Positions 3,531 through 10,610 of a stretch of DNA of 38,592 bases are shown here, in pieces. The stretch is from NCBI GenBank assembly GCA_003022945.1, contig PXRZ01000024.1:1-38592 (forward strand). The letters run 5' to 3'. The notes below the pieces were generated by a model. That model worked only from the letters and a program-made list of their open reading frames with translations. It was not told the origin of the DNA and ran no database searches. The translations under genes and the position numbers were made by a program. The stretch's first letter is position 1; every line of letters starts with the position of its first letter. Source of the stretch: Halobacteriales archaeon QS_8_69_73. GTDB lineage: Archaea; Halobacteriota; Halobacteria; Halobacteriales; Haloarculaceae.

Positions 3531-4910
3531 ATGGCAGACTGGACGGAGACGTACCGCCCGACAACGCTGTCGGAGGTGCGGGGCAACAACAAGGCCCGGG
3601 ACGCCTTCGAGGAGTGGGCCGAGACGTGGGACGACCACGGCGACGCGGTCGTCCTCCACGGGTCGCCGGGGGTCGGCAAGACCTCCGCCGCCCACGCGCT
3701 GGCCAACGACATGGGGTGGCCCGTCCTGGAGATGAACGCCTCCGACGCCCGCACCAGCGACGAGATCGAGCGGTTCGCGGGTCGGGCGGCATCGAACGCG
3801 ACGCTGGGAAGCCGGCGCCAGCTCGTGATCCTCGACGAGGCCGACAACCTCCATCGGCACAAGGACCGCGGCGGCGCCGCCGCGATGACGCGGTTGGTCA
3901 AGGACGCCAGCCAGCCGGTCGTGCTCATCGCCAACGACTACTACGAGATGTCCGCCGGCCTGCGGGGCGCTTGCCGCGAGGTCGAGTTCCGGGACGTCTC
4001 CTCGCGCTCCATCGTGCCGGTGCTGCGGGACATCTGTCGTCGCGAGGACGTCACCTTCGAGGAGTCGGTGCTGGAGATCATCGCCGACCGCAACCGAGGG
4101 GACCTCCGCGGGGCCATCAAGGACCTCCAGTCCCGCGTGAAAAACGGCGCGGTGACCGCCGAGGCGACGGAGGGCCGGCGCGACAAAACCGAGGACATCT
4201 TCTCGGTTCTCGACGCCGTCCTGAAGGAAGAGCCCGCCGAGGCGGCGCTGCGGACCACCTACGACGCCGACGAGACGCCCGACGACCTCCTGCAGTGGGT
4301 CGAGGGGCTGGGGCGGGTCCGGGCGACGCAGAACTACAGCTACTGGCGGTACGCGACGGACAACCTCGCGGCCGGCGTGGCGGCGACCCGCCGCTCGGAG
4401 CGCGGCGGCTGGACCCGCTACGGCGGAGCGCCGTACCGCTCCTCGCGGGACGCGACCCGCGACTACGTCGCCGAGCGCGTCGCCCAGCGGGCCGGCGTCT
4501 CGACGGCCACCGCCCGTCGAGAACTCATGCCGTACCTCGCGGCGATGACCCACCACTGCAAGAACCGCGAGTTGACGATCCGGATGGCCACCCGCTACGA
4601 CCTCGAGGCCGAACATGTCGCCTTCGTTACCGGCTCCGGCAAGACGACCAACAAGGTCCAAGGCATCGTCGAGGAGGCCGAACGCCGCAGCGAGGAGGCG
4701 GCCGTCGAGGGCTCCCGCGGGGCGTTCGCCGCCGTCGAGGAGGGTGTCGACGCCGACGCCGGCGACGGGTCGGACGCAGACGTCGACGCCAGCGACGCTG
4801 AGGCCGGTGCCGACGTCGACGGGGAGGGCGCCGGCGACGCCAACGACGCCGAGGAGGCCGATGAGCCCAACGCAGCCGACGACCAGGCCGGGCTCTCGGA
4901 GTTCATGTAG
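3531..4910 (+). CDS. rfcL: Replication factor C large subunit (clamp loader)
   Basis: A 459-residue AAA+ ATPase that, with RfcS, opens and loads the PCNA sliding clamp on primed DNA. Residues 1-20 (WTETYRPTTLSEVRGN) carry the RFC box. Walker A is GSPGVGKTS at 44-52 and Walker B is LVILDEAD at 98-105. Sensor text (VVLIANDYYE) and the GDLRGAIKDLQ helix of the lid follow. The C-terminal 70 or so residues are an acidic low-complexity tail of Asp, Ala and Glu. The last eight residues, QAGLSEFM, fit a PCNA-interacting (PIP) box with Q, L and F in the right places. The start is fixed by the TATA box 26 nt upstream. The stop at 4908-4910 directly abuts the stop of the convergent permease gene. Confidence 0.95.
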   Translation: MADWTETYRPTTLSEVRGNNKARDAFEEWAETWDDHGDAVVLHGSPGVGKTSAAHALANDMGWPVLEMNASDARTSDEIERFAGRAASNATLGSRRQLVILDEADNLHRHKDRGGAAAMTRLVKDASQPVVLIANDYYEMSAGLRGACREVEFRDVSSRSIVPVLRDICRREDVTFEESVLEIIADRNRGDLRGAIKDLQSRVKNGAVTAEATEGRRDKTEDIFSVLDAVLKEEPAEAALRTTYDADETPDDLLQWVEGLGRVRATQNYSYWRYATDNLAAGVAATRRSERGGWTRYGGAPYRSSRDATRDYVAERVAQRAGVSTATARRELMPYLAAMTHHCKNRELTIRMATRYDLEAEHVAFVTGSGKTTNKVQGIVEEAERRSEEAAVEGSRGAFAAVEEGVDADAGDGSDADVDASDAEAGADVDGEGAGDANDAEEADEPNAADDQAGLSEFM

Positions 4911-5826
4911 TCAGTCGCGTCCGTCGGTGCCGACGCCCGGGACGGCGACGCGGGCCTCGACCCGGTTCATCACGAGCGATAGCGTCAGCACCAGCCCGAG
5001 GTACAGCAGCGCCACCCACAGGTAGATGTCGAGCACGCGGAAGCTGTCGTTGGCGATGCTGCTGGCCCGCCGGAACAGCTCCGGGACGGTGATGAACGCC
5101 GCAAGCGAGGAGTACTTCACCAGGTAGATGAGCTCGTTCGTCCAGCCGGGGATGGCGTAGCGGGGCGGCGGCCAGCTGTCCGGCGTCGACCGACTCCAGC
5201 GCCGAGCGGATGTACTCCGCCTGATAGGCGCTGCTGTTGATCGTGAACCCGACGACGGCTACCCAGACGGCCGCCCGGGGGAGTGGGCCGCCGATGCCGG
5301 GGAGACTCCGGACCGGGCCGGACAGCGAGAGGCCGTAGTAGACGACGAACAGCTGTGCGAGCAGCGGCGTGCCGCGGATGAGTTCCGTGTACCCCAGCGC
5401 CACCCCCCGGAGCGGCCGCCCGCCGTACGTGCGGGCGACCGCGAGCGGAACGGCGATGACGAGTCCGAGTAGAATCGAGAGGACGGTCAGAAACACCGTC
5501 AGCCGGGCGCCGGTCGCCAGCGCCGGCATCGACCGCGCGCCGAAGGCGAGGAACTCGAGGGTACCGGCCCACAAATCTACGGCCGCCGCGGCCGGCCCGT
5601 CGAGTCCTCCGGCGACCCCGTGTGCCCGGGTGGCGGCGGCCTCGAGCGGCGCCGGCGGGACGAACGGCTCCCGGTCGCTGGTGTTGACGCCGGGCGCGAG
5701 GATCCGGTCGGTGACCCACCGGGCGAGCAGCCATAGCCAGAACAGCCCTCCGAGGCCGGCGGCCAGCAGTCGGCGGATCCCCGGGAGGTCGTCGACGCCG
5801 ATGTCGCGGCTCGTCCGGGTGCTCAT
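4911..5826 (-). pseudogene. Amino-acid ABC permease with deletion and frame change
   Basis: This is the last gene of the transporter operon. The frame from ATG 5826 codes for a HisM/GlnP-type permease up to about base 5165, with membrane segments around residues 20-36, 108-130 and 151-168 and the text ELIRGTPLLAQLFVVYYGL. After ALESVDAGQLAAA the good reading moves to another frame that resumes at YAIPGWTNEL and runs to TGA 4911-4913. About 20 residues normally lie between these blocks. They form the EAA loop (consensus EAAxxxGx9LP) that docks on the ATPase, and they are absent. Either a deletion of roughly 60-65 bp made the gene non-functional, or the assembly lost bases here. The ATG overlaps the TGA of the ATPase gene (ATGA), showing tight translational coupling. 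Confidence 0.75.
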
Positions 5827-6551
5827 GCGTCCAGCCGGCCGAGGAACTGGTCGGTACGCTTTCTCTCCGGCCGCTCGAACAGCCGGTCGGGCGGCCCCCG
5901 CTCGACGACCCGTCCGCCGTCGAGGAAGGTGAGAGTGTCGGCGACCGACCGGGCGAACCCCATCTCGTGGGTGACCACCAGCATCGTCATGCCGTCGTCG
6001 GCGAGGTCCTGCATCACCTCGAGCACCTCGCCGATGAGCTCGGGGTCGAGCGCGCTCGTCGGCTCGTCGAACAGCAGGAGTTCGGGCTCCATCGCCAGCG
6101 CGCGAGCGATGCCGACCCGCTGTTTCTGGCCACCGGACAGTTCGGCGGGATAGGAGTCGGCCTGATCGGCCAGTCCCACCCGCGCGAGGTTCGACTCGGC
6201 GGCCTCGCGGGCCTCGGCCTTCGACATCCCCCGGACCTGGCGGAGCCCGAGGGTGACGTTGCCCAGCGCCGTCCGGTGGGCGAAGAGGTTGACCCCCTGG
6301 AACACCATCCCGACGCGCCGCCGCAGGCTGTCGACGTCCATGCCGTGGACGGAGTCGCCGTCGAGGTAGATGTCACCGTCGTCGATCTCGGTGAGCCGGT
6401 TGACACACCGCAGCAGCGTCGACTTGCCGCTGCCGCTCGGGCCGACCACCACCTCGACGTCGGTCCGGTCCATCCCGAAGCCGACGCCCTCGAGCACCTC
6501 CTCGTCGCCGAAGGCCTTGTAGACGCCGTCGAACTCGAGCAGTCGGCTCAT
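5823..6551 (-). CDS. Polar amino-acid ABC transporter ATP-binding protein
   Basis: A 242-residue ABC ATPase of the GlnQ/HisP type that would power uptake of a polar amino acid with the two neighbouring permeases. Visible motifs: Walker A GPSGSGKST at 37-45, Q-loop VFQGVNLF near 83-90, signature LSGGQKQRV at 138-146, Walker B LLLFDEPTSALDPE near 158-171, and switch histidine in VVTHEMGFA. All catalytic residues are present. The ATG at 6551 overlaps the TGA of the upstream permease, and its own TGA overlaps the ATG of the downstream permease, so the three are one coupled operon. Which amino acid is carried cannot be read from the sequence. Confidence 0.93.
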   Translation of the reverse strand: MSRLLEFDGVYKAFGDEEVLEGVGFGMDRTDVEVVVGPSGSGKSTLLRCVNRLTEIDDGDIYLDGDSVHGMDVDSLRRRVGMVFQGVNLFAHRTALGNVTLGLRQVRGMSKAEAREAAESNLARVGLADQADSYPAELSGGQKQRVGIARALAMEPELLLFDEPTSALDPELIGEVLEVMQDLADDGMTMLVVTHEMGFARSVADTLTFLDGGRVVERGPPDRLFERPERKRTDQFLGRLDA

Positions 6552-7285
6552 GTTGACTCCTCCGGGATCGCGTACCGCCGTTCGACGAGATCGAGCGTCC
6601 GGTTCGTCGCGAAGGTGAGCACGAAGTAGACGGCGCTGATGACGAAGACGACCTCGACGACCGCCGACTGGCCGGGCTGGAGGAACAGCTGCCGGCCCTG
6701 GAACAGCAGCTCGCCCAGCCCGATGGCGATGGCGATGCTCGTGTCCTTCAGGACGATGGTGAACTCGTTCTGGAAGCCCGGAATCGAGCGCCGCAGCGCC
6801 TGCGGCAGCACGACGTGCCGGACGGCCTGGAACGTCGAGAGGTTGATCGCTCGAGCGGCCTCCATCTGCCCCTCGTCGATGCTCCGGATGGCGCCGCGGA
6901 ACACCTGCGACTGGTAAGCGGCGCTGCGGAGTCCGAGCGCCGTCGTCGCCGCCAGCAGCGCCCGGCCGTTGACGTCGAACCGCGGGACCAGCAGCCACCC
7001 GCCCAGCGGGAGTCCGCCGAGGTCGGGCCACGGCGCCCCGAAGAAGAACAGCACGATGAGCACGACGATGGGCGTCCCGCGCAGCAGGACGCCCGCCCCG
7101 CGGACGACCGACCGGAGCGGACCGGCGCCGTACACCTCGACCGCGCCGGCCGGAAAGCCCGCCAGAAAGCCGAGCAGGAGACTCCCGACCGTCAGCAGGA
7201 CCGTCACGTACAGCCCCTGTGCGAGCACCGGCCAGTTCCCGAGGACGAAGGCCCAATCGCCGGGCTGAAGCGGTACGGACTCCAT
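6548..7285 (-). CDS. Polar amino-acid ABC transporter permease
   Basis: A 245-residue HisM/GlnP-type permease with hydrophobic segments near residues 20-45, 72-83, 108-125, 175-195 and 208-228. The ATPase-docking EAA loop is intact at residues 142-165 (EAARAINLSTF, then LPQALR), in clear contrast to the sister permease in the same operon. RGTPIVVLIVLFFFG is the usual conserved segment of the family. The gene follows the binding-protein gene by 9 bp and overlaps the ATPase start by ATGA. A working transporter could use this permease as a homodimer if the second is dead; that is inference. Confidence 0.92.
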   Translation of the reverse strand: MESVPLQPGDWAFVLGNWPVLAQGLYVTVLLTVGSLLLGFLAGFPAGAVEVYGAGPLRSVVRGAGVLLRGTPIVVLIVLFFFGAPWPDLGGLPLGGWLLVPRFDVNGRALLAATTALGLRSAAYQSQVFRGAIRSIDEGQMEAARAINLSTFQAVRHVVLPQALRRSIPGFQNEFTIVLKDTSIAIAIGLGELLFQGRQLFLQPGQSAVVEVVFVISAVYFVLTFATNRTLDLVERRYAIPEEST

Positions 7286-7294
7286 CGCGGCGGG

Positions 7295-8137
7295 TTACCG
7301 CTGGGCGAAGTTCTCCGCGACCGGGACGTCGATGATGACGGCGTCGATGTTGCCGCTCTCGAGGTCGTTCACCGCCAGCTCGTAGTTGCCGTAGACTCGC
7401 TTGTCGTCCTCCGAGATGATGCTGTCCTCGACGAGCATGTCGACCTGGCCCTCGCCGGTGGTCCCGCTCTGTGCGCCGACGACCTGTCCCTCGAAGTCCT
7501 CGCGGCCTTCCGGTTCGAAGTCACCCCCGGAGGCGACTAGCACCGCCTGATTGGCCTCGTAGTAGGGGTCCGAGAAGTCGATCTGCTCGTCGCGGTCGTC
7601 GGTGATGGTCATCGCCGCCGCGATGAGGTCGATGTTGCCGTCCTGCAGCGCGGGGATGAGGCTGTCGAACTCGAAGGTCTCGAAGCCGCCGAACTCGTAG
7701 TCGGTGCGGGCTAGCACCGCCTCCGTCAGCTCGACGTCGAAGCCGACCAGCTCGCCGCCCTCGTTGAACTCGAACGGCGCGAAGCCAGAGGCGGTCCCGG
7801 CGACGACCGTCCCCGCCCCGGTGCCGCCGTCGGCGCCCTCGGTGACGTCGCCGGCGTCGTCGCCGGAGCCGAAGTACTCCTCGATGAGCGCGTCGTAGGT
7901 GCCGTCCTCCTCGACGGCCGACAGCCCCTCGTTCACCGCCGTCTGGACGTCGCCGGCGTCCTCACGGAGCCCGAGGCCGTATTCCTCGCCGGTCTCGATG
8001 GTGAAGGCGACCTCGACGCCGCCCTCGCCGCTGCCGCCGTTACCGTTGCCCGTACAGCCGGCGACGGCCGCCGTCGTCCCCGCGACCCCGACCGTCTTCA
8101 GGTACGCCCGACGGTCCAAGCCGTAGCTGCGTGTCAT
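7295..8137 (-). CDS. Amino-acid-binding lipoprotein, apparently circularly permuted
   Basis: A 280-residue extracellular binding protein (SBP family 3) of the operon. ATG 8137 gives a Tat signal with DRRAYLK at 8-14 and lipobox cysteine 28 (VAGC). The normal N-terminal start of the fold (GTVVAGTASGFAPFEF) only appears at residue 109. Before it, residues 41-90 (VEVAFTIETGEEYGLGLRED, ending in DGTYDALIEEYFG) match what is usually the C-terminal end of such proteins, where the chain returns to lobe 1. The protein instead stops at AVIIDVPVAENFAQR, just where that end should begin. A Gly/Asp-rich linker (91-108) joins the two. A circular permutation, or a tandem dimer that lost its two outer halves, explains this. 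Either could fold, because the natural termini are close together in this fold. Confidence 0.88.
   Translation of the reverse strand: MTRSYGLDRRAYLKTVGVAGTTAAVAGCTGNGNGGSGEGGVEVAFTIETGEEYGLGLREDAGDVQTAVNEGLSAVEEDGTYDALIEEYFGSGDDAGDVTEGADGGTGAGTVVAGTASGFAPFEFNEGGELVGFDVELTEAVLARTDYEFGGFETFEFDSLIPALQDGNIDLIAAAMTITDDRDEQIDFSDPYYEANQAVLVASGGDFEPEGREDFEGQVVGAQSGTTGEGQVDMLVEDSIISEDDKRVYGNYELAVNDLESGNIDAVIIDVPVAENFAQR

Positions 8138-8351: not shown

Positions 8352-10610
<2,259 letters not shown>

Follow-up and report, generated by a model that had tools for sequence, protein, structure and literature searches.

A probable natural circular permutation in an SBP_bac_3 amino-acid-binding lipoprotein of haloarchaea

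The window analysed here, the whole stretch of 38,592 nucleotides from Halobacteriales archaeon QS_8_69_73 (contig PXRZ01000024.1), encodes what is very probably a natural, genuine circularly permuted amino-acid-binding lipoprotein, which took the place of the usual binding protein of a GlnPQ-like ABC importer, at the locus where the latter originally lay. The order of the segments, its conservation in six genomes, the synteny with normal-order genes, the grouping of the permuted genes in one clade, the low dN/dS of the protein body and a confident predicted fold were established, and amino-acid binding and transport are the functions predicted from the sequence. Besides this permutation within SBP_bac_3 (type A, the window lineage), a second, bacterial one is new here, permuted binding proteins being already known in other families (TpMglB-2 and the betaine binders).

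Segment order and predicted fold

By sequence, the protein belongs to SBP_bac_3 (PF00497), with 107.9 bits vs the Pfam curated cut-off of 26.4, and the profile is not matched in native order: in the profile search, PF00497 positions 97-131 (7868-8077) were located upstream of positions 2-95 (7520-7804). As the order of segments lies outside the Pfam curated cut-off, membership by sequence stands, and our claim is that of a permuted member of the family. A phmmer comparison with AncQR (4zv1, chain of 233 residues) aligned query residues 109-276 with chain residues 10-173, and query residues 39-90 with chain residues 181-232, the two swapped pieces together spanning nearly the entire chain; likewise, the NCBIfam GlnH model matched two stretches of the window protein vs a single one in its normal-order relative G017. 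Every segment is thus present once, in an order rotated relative to the homologue, as defines a circular permutant (Table 1).

Table 1. Features of the permuted gene, its product and the downstream importer genes in the window
Feature	Positions	Strand	Basis
Permuted SBP_bac_3 lipoprotein gene, 280 aa + stop	7295..8137	(-)	
Residues 1-28, twin-arginine-type signal and lipobox ending at Cys28	8054..8137	(-)	motifs by eye
Residues 29-40, linker 1, short and Gly-rich	8018..8053	(-)	sequence
Residues 41-90, moved C-terminal segment (hinge strand 2 and last two lobe 1 helices)	7868..8017	(-)	PF00497, phmmer, model
Residues 91-109, linker 2, from native C-terminal end to native N-terminal end	7811..7867	(-)	
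Residues 94-104, 11-codon run invariant across the six permuted genomes	7826..7858	(-)	codon comparison
Residues 110-280, N-terminal part of lobe 1, hinge strand 1 and lobe 2, stopping at the last lobe-2 helix	7298..7810	(-)	
First permease gene (BPD_transp_1, GlnP-like), next downstream of the permuted gene	6548..7285	(-)	
ATPase gene (GlnQ-like)	5823..6551	(-)	
Second permease ORF	4903..5826	(-)	comparison with G016

A preliminary description of this DNA, made from the sequence, had placed the C-terminal segment first (residues 41-90), followed by a Gly/Asp linker and the normal start, and had set the end of the protein where the usual C-terminal segment would begin. The PF00497 and phmmer orders bear out this arrangement, with the N-terminal body at residues 110-280 behind linker 2 and the last lobe-2 helix as the end; of the two linkers proposed to resemble lipobox spacers, the second was seen to do so. 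Little is lost at the new C-terminus, since the protein stops only 2-3 residues short of the usual hinge strand.

By prediction, the fold would be shared with the SBP_bac_3 binders (GlnH/GlnBP, ArtJ, AncQR), from which the window protein differs in carrying the C-terminal segment ahead of the N-terminal body, with its termini at hinge 2 rather than on lobe 1. An Arg and an Asp that should hold the amino acid are conserved in both these binders and the window protein; R182 and D270, invariant in 41/41 rows of the modelling alignment, are presumably these residues, judging by their roles in GlnBP, and are predicted to bind the amino acid here as well.

This modelling alignment (A1) comprised the six whole permuted proteins and 35 body fragments from available loci, so that the depth over the moved segment was six sequences; an alternative (A2), to which normal C-segment fragments were added, gave identities of 15-40%, which we read as MAFFT placing the fragments on the body, and A1 was preferred. 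Fold prediction, proposed as a check in the preliminary description, yielded a confident two-lobe AlphaFold2 model (mean pLDDT 83.7, pTM 0.79), in which pLDDT was at least 90 at 177 of the 280 residues, below 50 at residues 1-38, 92-96 as block means over residues 41-90, and 79-84 in linker 2. The normal-order G017 protein gave comparable values (mean pLDDT 84.1, pTM 0.76). When aligned with liganded 4zv1 by Foldseek, the window model matched over 171 columns at 1.8 A vs 228 columns at 2.1 A for the G017 control; Foldseek being order-dependent, it is pLDDT and pTM, at a depth of six sequences, that speak for the docking of the moved segment. In the G017 model a helix ends at residue 227 and a continuous strand runs from 230 to 246. 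The window protein ends on the equivalent of that helix and, after linker 1, starts with the equivalent of that strand, which locates the cut in the short turn that leads into hinge strand 2.

According to the mechanism that we propose, the protein would be exported folded by Tat and then lipid-anchored. Linker 2 would join both native termini, each on lobe 1, and this lobe would be rebuilt by the moved segment, now at the front, together with the N-terminal one. The new ends would fall at the former connection of hinge strand 2 with lobe 2, so that one of the two covalent lobe crossovers would be cut; lobe 2 would then hang on a single covalent crossover, with hinge strand 2 kept in place by pairing, and the lipid anchor would enter at the hinge/lobe-2 side and no longer at lobe 1. 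The amino acid would be bound between the lobes and passed to the permease.

Lobe 1 might instead be completed by the front segment of another chain, in a segment-swapped dimer or oligomer. A precedent exists in the relative TmArgBP, whose C-terminal helix is exchanged between chains (PMC9402392, PMC7589609) and, in the simulations described in the available part of one report, restrains the open state (PMC9402392). Such a swap is unlikely here, as the 19 residues of linker 2 seem long enough for docking within the same chain and the model, computed for a single chain, is confident. The D1 construct of TmArgBP (PDB entry 6GPC) resembles the monomeric arrangement that we prefer, its lobe 1 being formed by two non-consecutive segments and a flexible linker; unlike the window protein, from what the available text of the report describes, D1 is engineered, has no lobe 2 and retains the native segment order (PMC7589609).

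Distribution, locus and evolution of the permuted gene

Six of 20 genomes of the genus (G000, G007, G011, G016, G013 and G014) displayed the permuted order as a single-stretch match over residues 1-280. One of them is the window genome itself; the proteins of the other five share 75-91% identity with the window protein, and the ORF is intact in all six. Another eight genomes gave normal-order matches (five at 58-64% identity, three at 43-45%), and the remaining six gave no match to the window protein at E <= 1e-20. In each permuted genome (completeness 72-99%) a single PF00497 locus was found, namely the permuted gene. Family-wide (146 genomes), the permuted order occurred in these six only, among 35 genomes matching at E <= 1e-60, and in 391 genomes drawn from the class no further permuted case appeared among the matches listed.

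The window genome is a 79-contig assembly with 76% completeness, and a local rearrangement within one metagenome bin could in principle have produced the observed order. This is very unlikely, to the point of being negligible: the order is shared by five other genomes in separate assemblies, including G016 (99% complete, 5% contamination, two contigs), where the gene lies on a 3.85-Mb contig, and the synonymous and amino-acid differences among the six indicate that the permuted gene has been accumulating changes for a while. The preliminary description had named normal-order genes in sister genomes, together with reads revealing a local assembly rearrangement, as grounds against a permutation; the first do exist at the locus, and a local mis-assembly is made very unlikely by the recurrence of the order in six assemblies. 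Its central proposal, a natural permuted binding protein, is supported by the six of 20 genomes, the five normal-order sisters at the locus, the single clade and the confident predicted fold.

The locus is arranged as CtaA-like / malic enzyme / SBP / permease / ATPase / permease / RfcL, and in G017, G015, G010 and G018 a normal-order gene occupies the position of the permuted one, as it does in G001 over the extent of its contig. These orthologues thus combine 58-64% identity with the same gene neighbourhood. Two contigs are truncated within the region, that of G001 starting within the malic enzyme gene and that of G007 stopping within the second permease gene. In the window, the second permease ORF displays a frame change near position 5163 relative to the G016 gene, with about 20 residues missing and the permease profile matched in part; it looks broken, either as a pseudogene or through an assembly error of the bin.

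Three further features of the locus were recorded: the malic enzyme gene of the window (8352-10610, minus strand) is fused with a phosphotransacetylase-like domain; G011 (locus L069) carries about 1.8 kb of additional DNA (3683-5492) between the malic enzyme gene and the permuted gene; and G018 (L077) has two neighbouring normal-order SBP_bac_3 genes at the locus, with 58% and 42% identity to the window protein.

Phylogenetic trees were built from 35 sequences chosen from available loci (6 permuted, 27 normal-order and 2 outgroup). The permuted genes formed one clade, with support of 74 for the body, 96 for the C-segment and 70 for both jointly. The body tree placed G017 as sister of this clade (98), whereas in the C-segment and joint trees a clade including G323, G034 and others was nearest to the permuted genes, followed by G017. 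Since the trees differ on the nearest normal relative, the permuted gene may combine two closely related paralogues; on these trees, a chimera built from distant ones is unlikely.

Among the permuted genes, dN/dS was 0.18-0.33 in the body (14 pairs) and 0.29-1.02 in the moved segment (15 pairs). The moved segment diverged faster than the body, with a median ratio of 1.84 (range 1.26-2.63; 15 pairs), vs a median of 0.98 for the C-segment and body of normal genes; the latter was obtained from 48 pairs, which are not independent, with body identity of 0.72-0.97 and with G018b and the outgroups left out. This faster divergence would be explained as well by relaxed constraint as by adaptation. Together with the broken second permease of the window genome, it could also point to a tandem fusion whose remnant is decaying, with binding and transport lost. 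We consider such decay improbable, given the intact ORF in six genomes, the low body dN/dS, the adjoining permease and ATPase genes, the confident predicted fold and the fact that no other family-3 locus was found in any of the six genomes.

Linker 2, a Gly/Asp linker, is nonetheless strongly conserved, even at synonymous sites. Across the six genomes, 13 of its 19 codons are identical, 3 display synonymous changes and 3 amino-acid changes; the 11 successive codons for residues 94-104 are identical in 6/6 genomes and the flanking synonymous sites are variable. A run of such length arose in 2 of 20,000 shuffles, in a test applied post hoc. As a mere conjecture, the identical codons could be the trace of some mobile or regulatory element. 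At the other end of the gene, the signal-peptide DNA (8054-8137) has a dS of 0.04 relative to G011, despite a body dS of 0.42, which suggests an exchange of the 5' part.

Relation to known permuted binding proteins

TpMglB-2 of Treponema pallidum, a sugar-binding lipoprotein of known crystal structure, is permuted, and the designation Type Ic / Cluster Bc was proposed for it; according to the available part of the report, it binds its ligand and changes conformation, and its authors considered tethering a possible reason for the permutation (PMC4990184). Both TpMglB-2 and the window protein are natural circular permutants and lipid-tethered binding proteins, but the former is, as the available text describes it, a sugar-binding Type I / Cluster B protein in which a fourth crossover was added rather than one cut (PMC4990184). 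The window protein falls outside Type Ic / Cluster Bc, its matches being family-3 amino-acid binders. The moved part of TpMglB-2 and its E. coli counterpart share only 13% identity, which makes the event look old, and the available part of the report mentions no gene of normal order at that locus, unlike what is found in the window lineage (PMC4990184). Furthermore, the CPSARST report, as far as available, relates glycine-betaine- and molybdate-binding proteins and CysB by circular permutation; these are permutations among substrate-binding folds as well, but between distant proteins (<24% identity) of other families (PMC2395249). Within SBP_bac_3, no report of a natural permutation was found in the open-access literature, a scope outside which most subscription journals lie, and the available parts of the CIRPIN preprint and the OpuA paper held nothing on such a case.

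The published natural binding-protein permutations cited above link distant proteins, and those events are therefore old. Conversely, the permuted and normal genes described here are 58-64% identical and share one locus in one genus, so that it becomes possible to map the event onto a phylogeny, to reconstruct how it arose and to measure what it costs or gains. On the reading of recurrent cutting at the hinges, proposed below, the window lineage would be a recent, in-place case with its unpermuted sisters still available. The permuted proteins would also be ready-made scaffolds, like the permuted ones engineered for amino-acid sensors.

Permutations at other cut points and possible origin

A second permutation, type B, emerged from a comparison of the window protein with 296 genomes of the phylum to which the L039 genome belongs: 37 genomes matched at E <= 1e-25, and in three of these the match covered query residues 40 to about 203. 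The type B order is lobe 2, hinge strand 2, C-segment, linker and N-terminal segment of lobe 1, with the end right after hinge strand 1, and the proteins are lipoproteins (lipobox by eye). With one of them (P0002) as query, 23 of 296 genomes of the class gave a single-stretch match over essentially full length (66-100% identity), and 68 gave some match at E <= 1e-30; one type B gene lies on a 1.84-Mb contig. Normal-order relatives were read in five genomes of the same class, and in the tree the 23 type B sequences group apart from the five normal ones with support of 100. Type B shares with the window protein its nature as a permuted family-3 lipoprotein ahead of permease and ATPase genes (7/7 loci examined, of the 23), but it is cut at the other hinge, hinge 1, and constitutes an independent permutation of separate origin.

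The type B junction retains a footprint of its formation. The motif W[FL][GA]xxPMSxP, present in 23/23 (counted by eye), is like the C-terminal ends of the five normal-order proteins (WFGAEPLSIP or close variants of it) and continues, in most, into a stretch resembling the normal N-terminal spacer (TLTxGKIIVGSDT). A native C-terminal tail followed by a native N-terminal spacer agrees with the expectation for an in-frame tandem fusion and subsequent outer truncation. For the window protein, too, the most likely origin would be an in-frame tandem duplication, followed by truncation of both outer parts, the N-terminal one in copy 1 and the C-terminal one in copy 2, its footprint in this lineage being limited to linker composition. 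A remnant of a tandem SBP fusion had been the alternative offered in the preliminary description; it is apt as a route of origin only, whose footprint the bacterial junction bears and which would apply to the window protein by inference.

Alternatively, the 3' segment might have moved into the lipobox spacer by cut and paste, with no tandem duplication or truncation. The combined length of linkers 1 and 2 (12 and 19 residues), close to that of the single G017 spacer, would agree with such a transfer, which we hold to be a possible but clearly less probable origin: the bacterial junction is what a fusion predicts, tandem SBP genes occur at the archaeal locus (G018), and a 1016-codon open frame of the type B class (G890, L109) contains two tandem SBP_bac_3 domains before a permease in one frame.

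A third cut point was observed in G776, whose 307-residue open frame, after a signal and lipobox, starts inside lobe 2 and also ends inside lobe 2, with permease and ATPase matches after it. This segment order was found in one of the 14 genomes of its order, all 14 with some match at E <= 1e-20, and four close relatives (60-76% identity by piece) have the normal order. As the contig spans 4.2 kb, the third permutation is provisional.

The frequency of permutation was assessed with a doubled query, i.e., one normal protein written twice, which exposes any cut point. In the bacterial phylum (376 genomes), 173 genomes matched at E <= 1e-28, and among the matches listed mid-protein starts occurred only in type B G590, G623 and G644. 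Among 391 haloarchaeal genomes, 220 matched at E <= 1e-30, with mid-protein starts only in G011 (171-393) and G013 (173-416) among the matches listed, which did not include that of the window genome. Natural permutation thus appears to be rare in these samples, yet to have occurred more than once.

In all three permutations the anchor would have moved off lobe 1, onto the hinge or lobe 2. We tentatively suggest, as a possibility somewhat short of even chances, that lipid-anchored family-3 binders have recurrently been cut and rejoined at their hinges in evolution. The tether would have passed from lobe 1 to the hinge or to lobe 2 three times, in one provisional and two replicated cases, opposite covalent crossovers being cut in the replicated pair, and opening, closing or permease docking would thereby have been retuned. 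As the two separate events cut the Venus flytrap at opposite hinges, the need for both crossovers and the position of the tether become directly testable.

Several further candidates read as normal order: G244 (match 6-278; 2-222 with the doubled query), the bacterial relatives L039 and L040, G728 (71-273, with a long spacer) and G778 (117-302). G515 (2-451), which spans both copies of the doubled query, matches the window protein over 108-276, like normal genes, and G536 (8-448; L133), a bacterium of the type B phylum, has two neighbouring normal-order SBP_bac_3 genes.

Finally, an N-terminal permease extension of about 150 residues was observed beside the type B genes of L085, L086, L087, L116, L119 and L120; it was not seen in normal-order L111-L114, in type C L110 or in type B L118.
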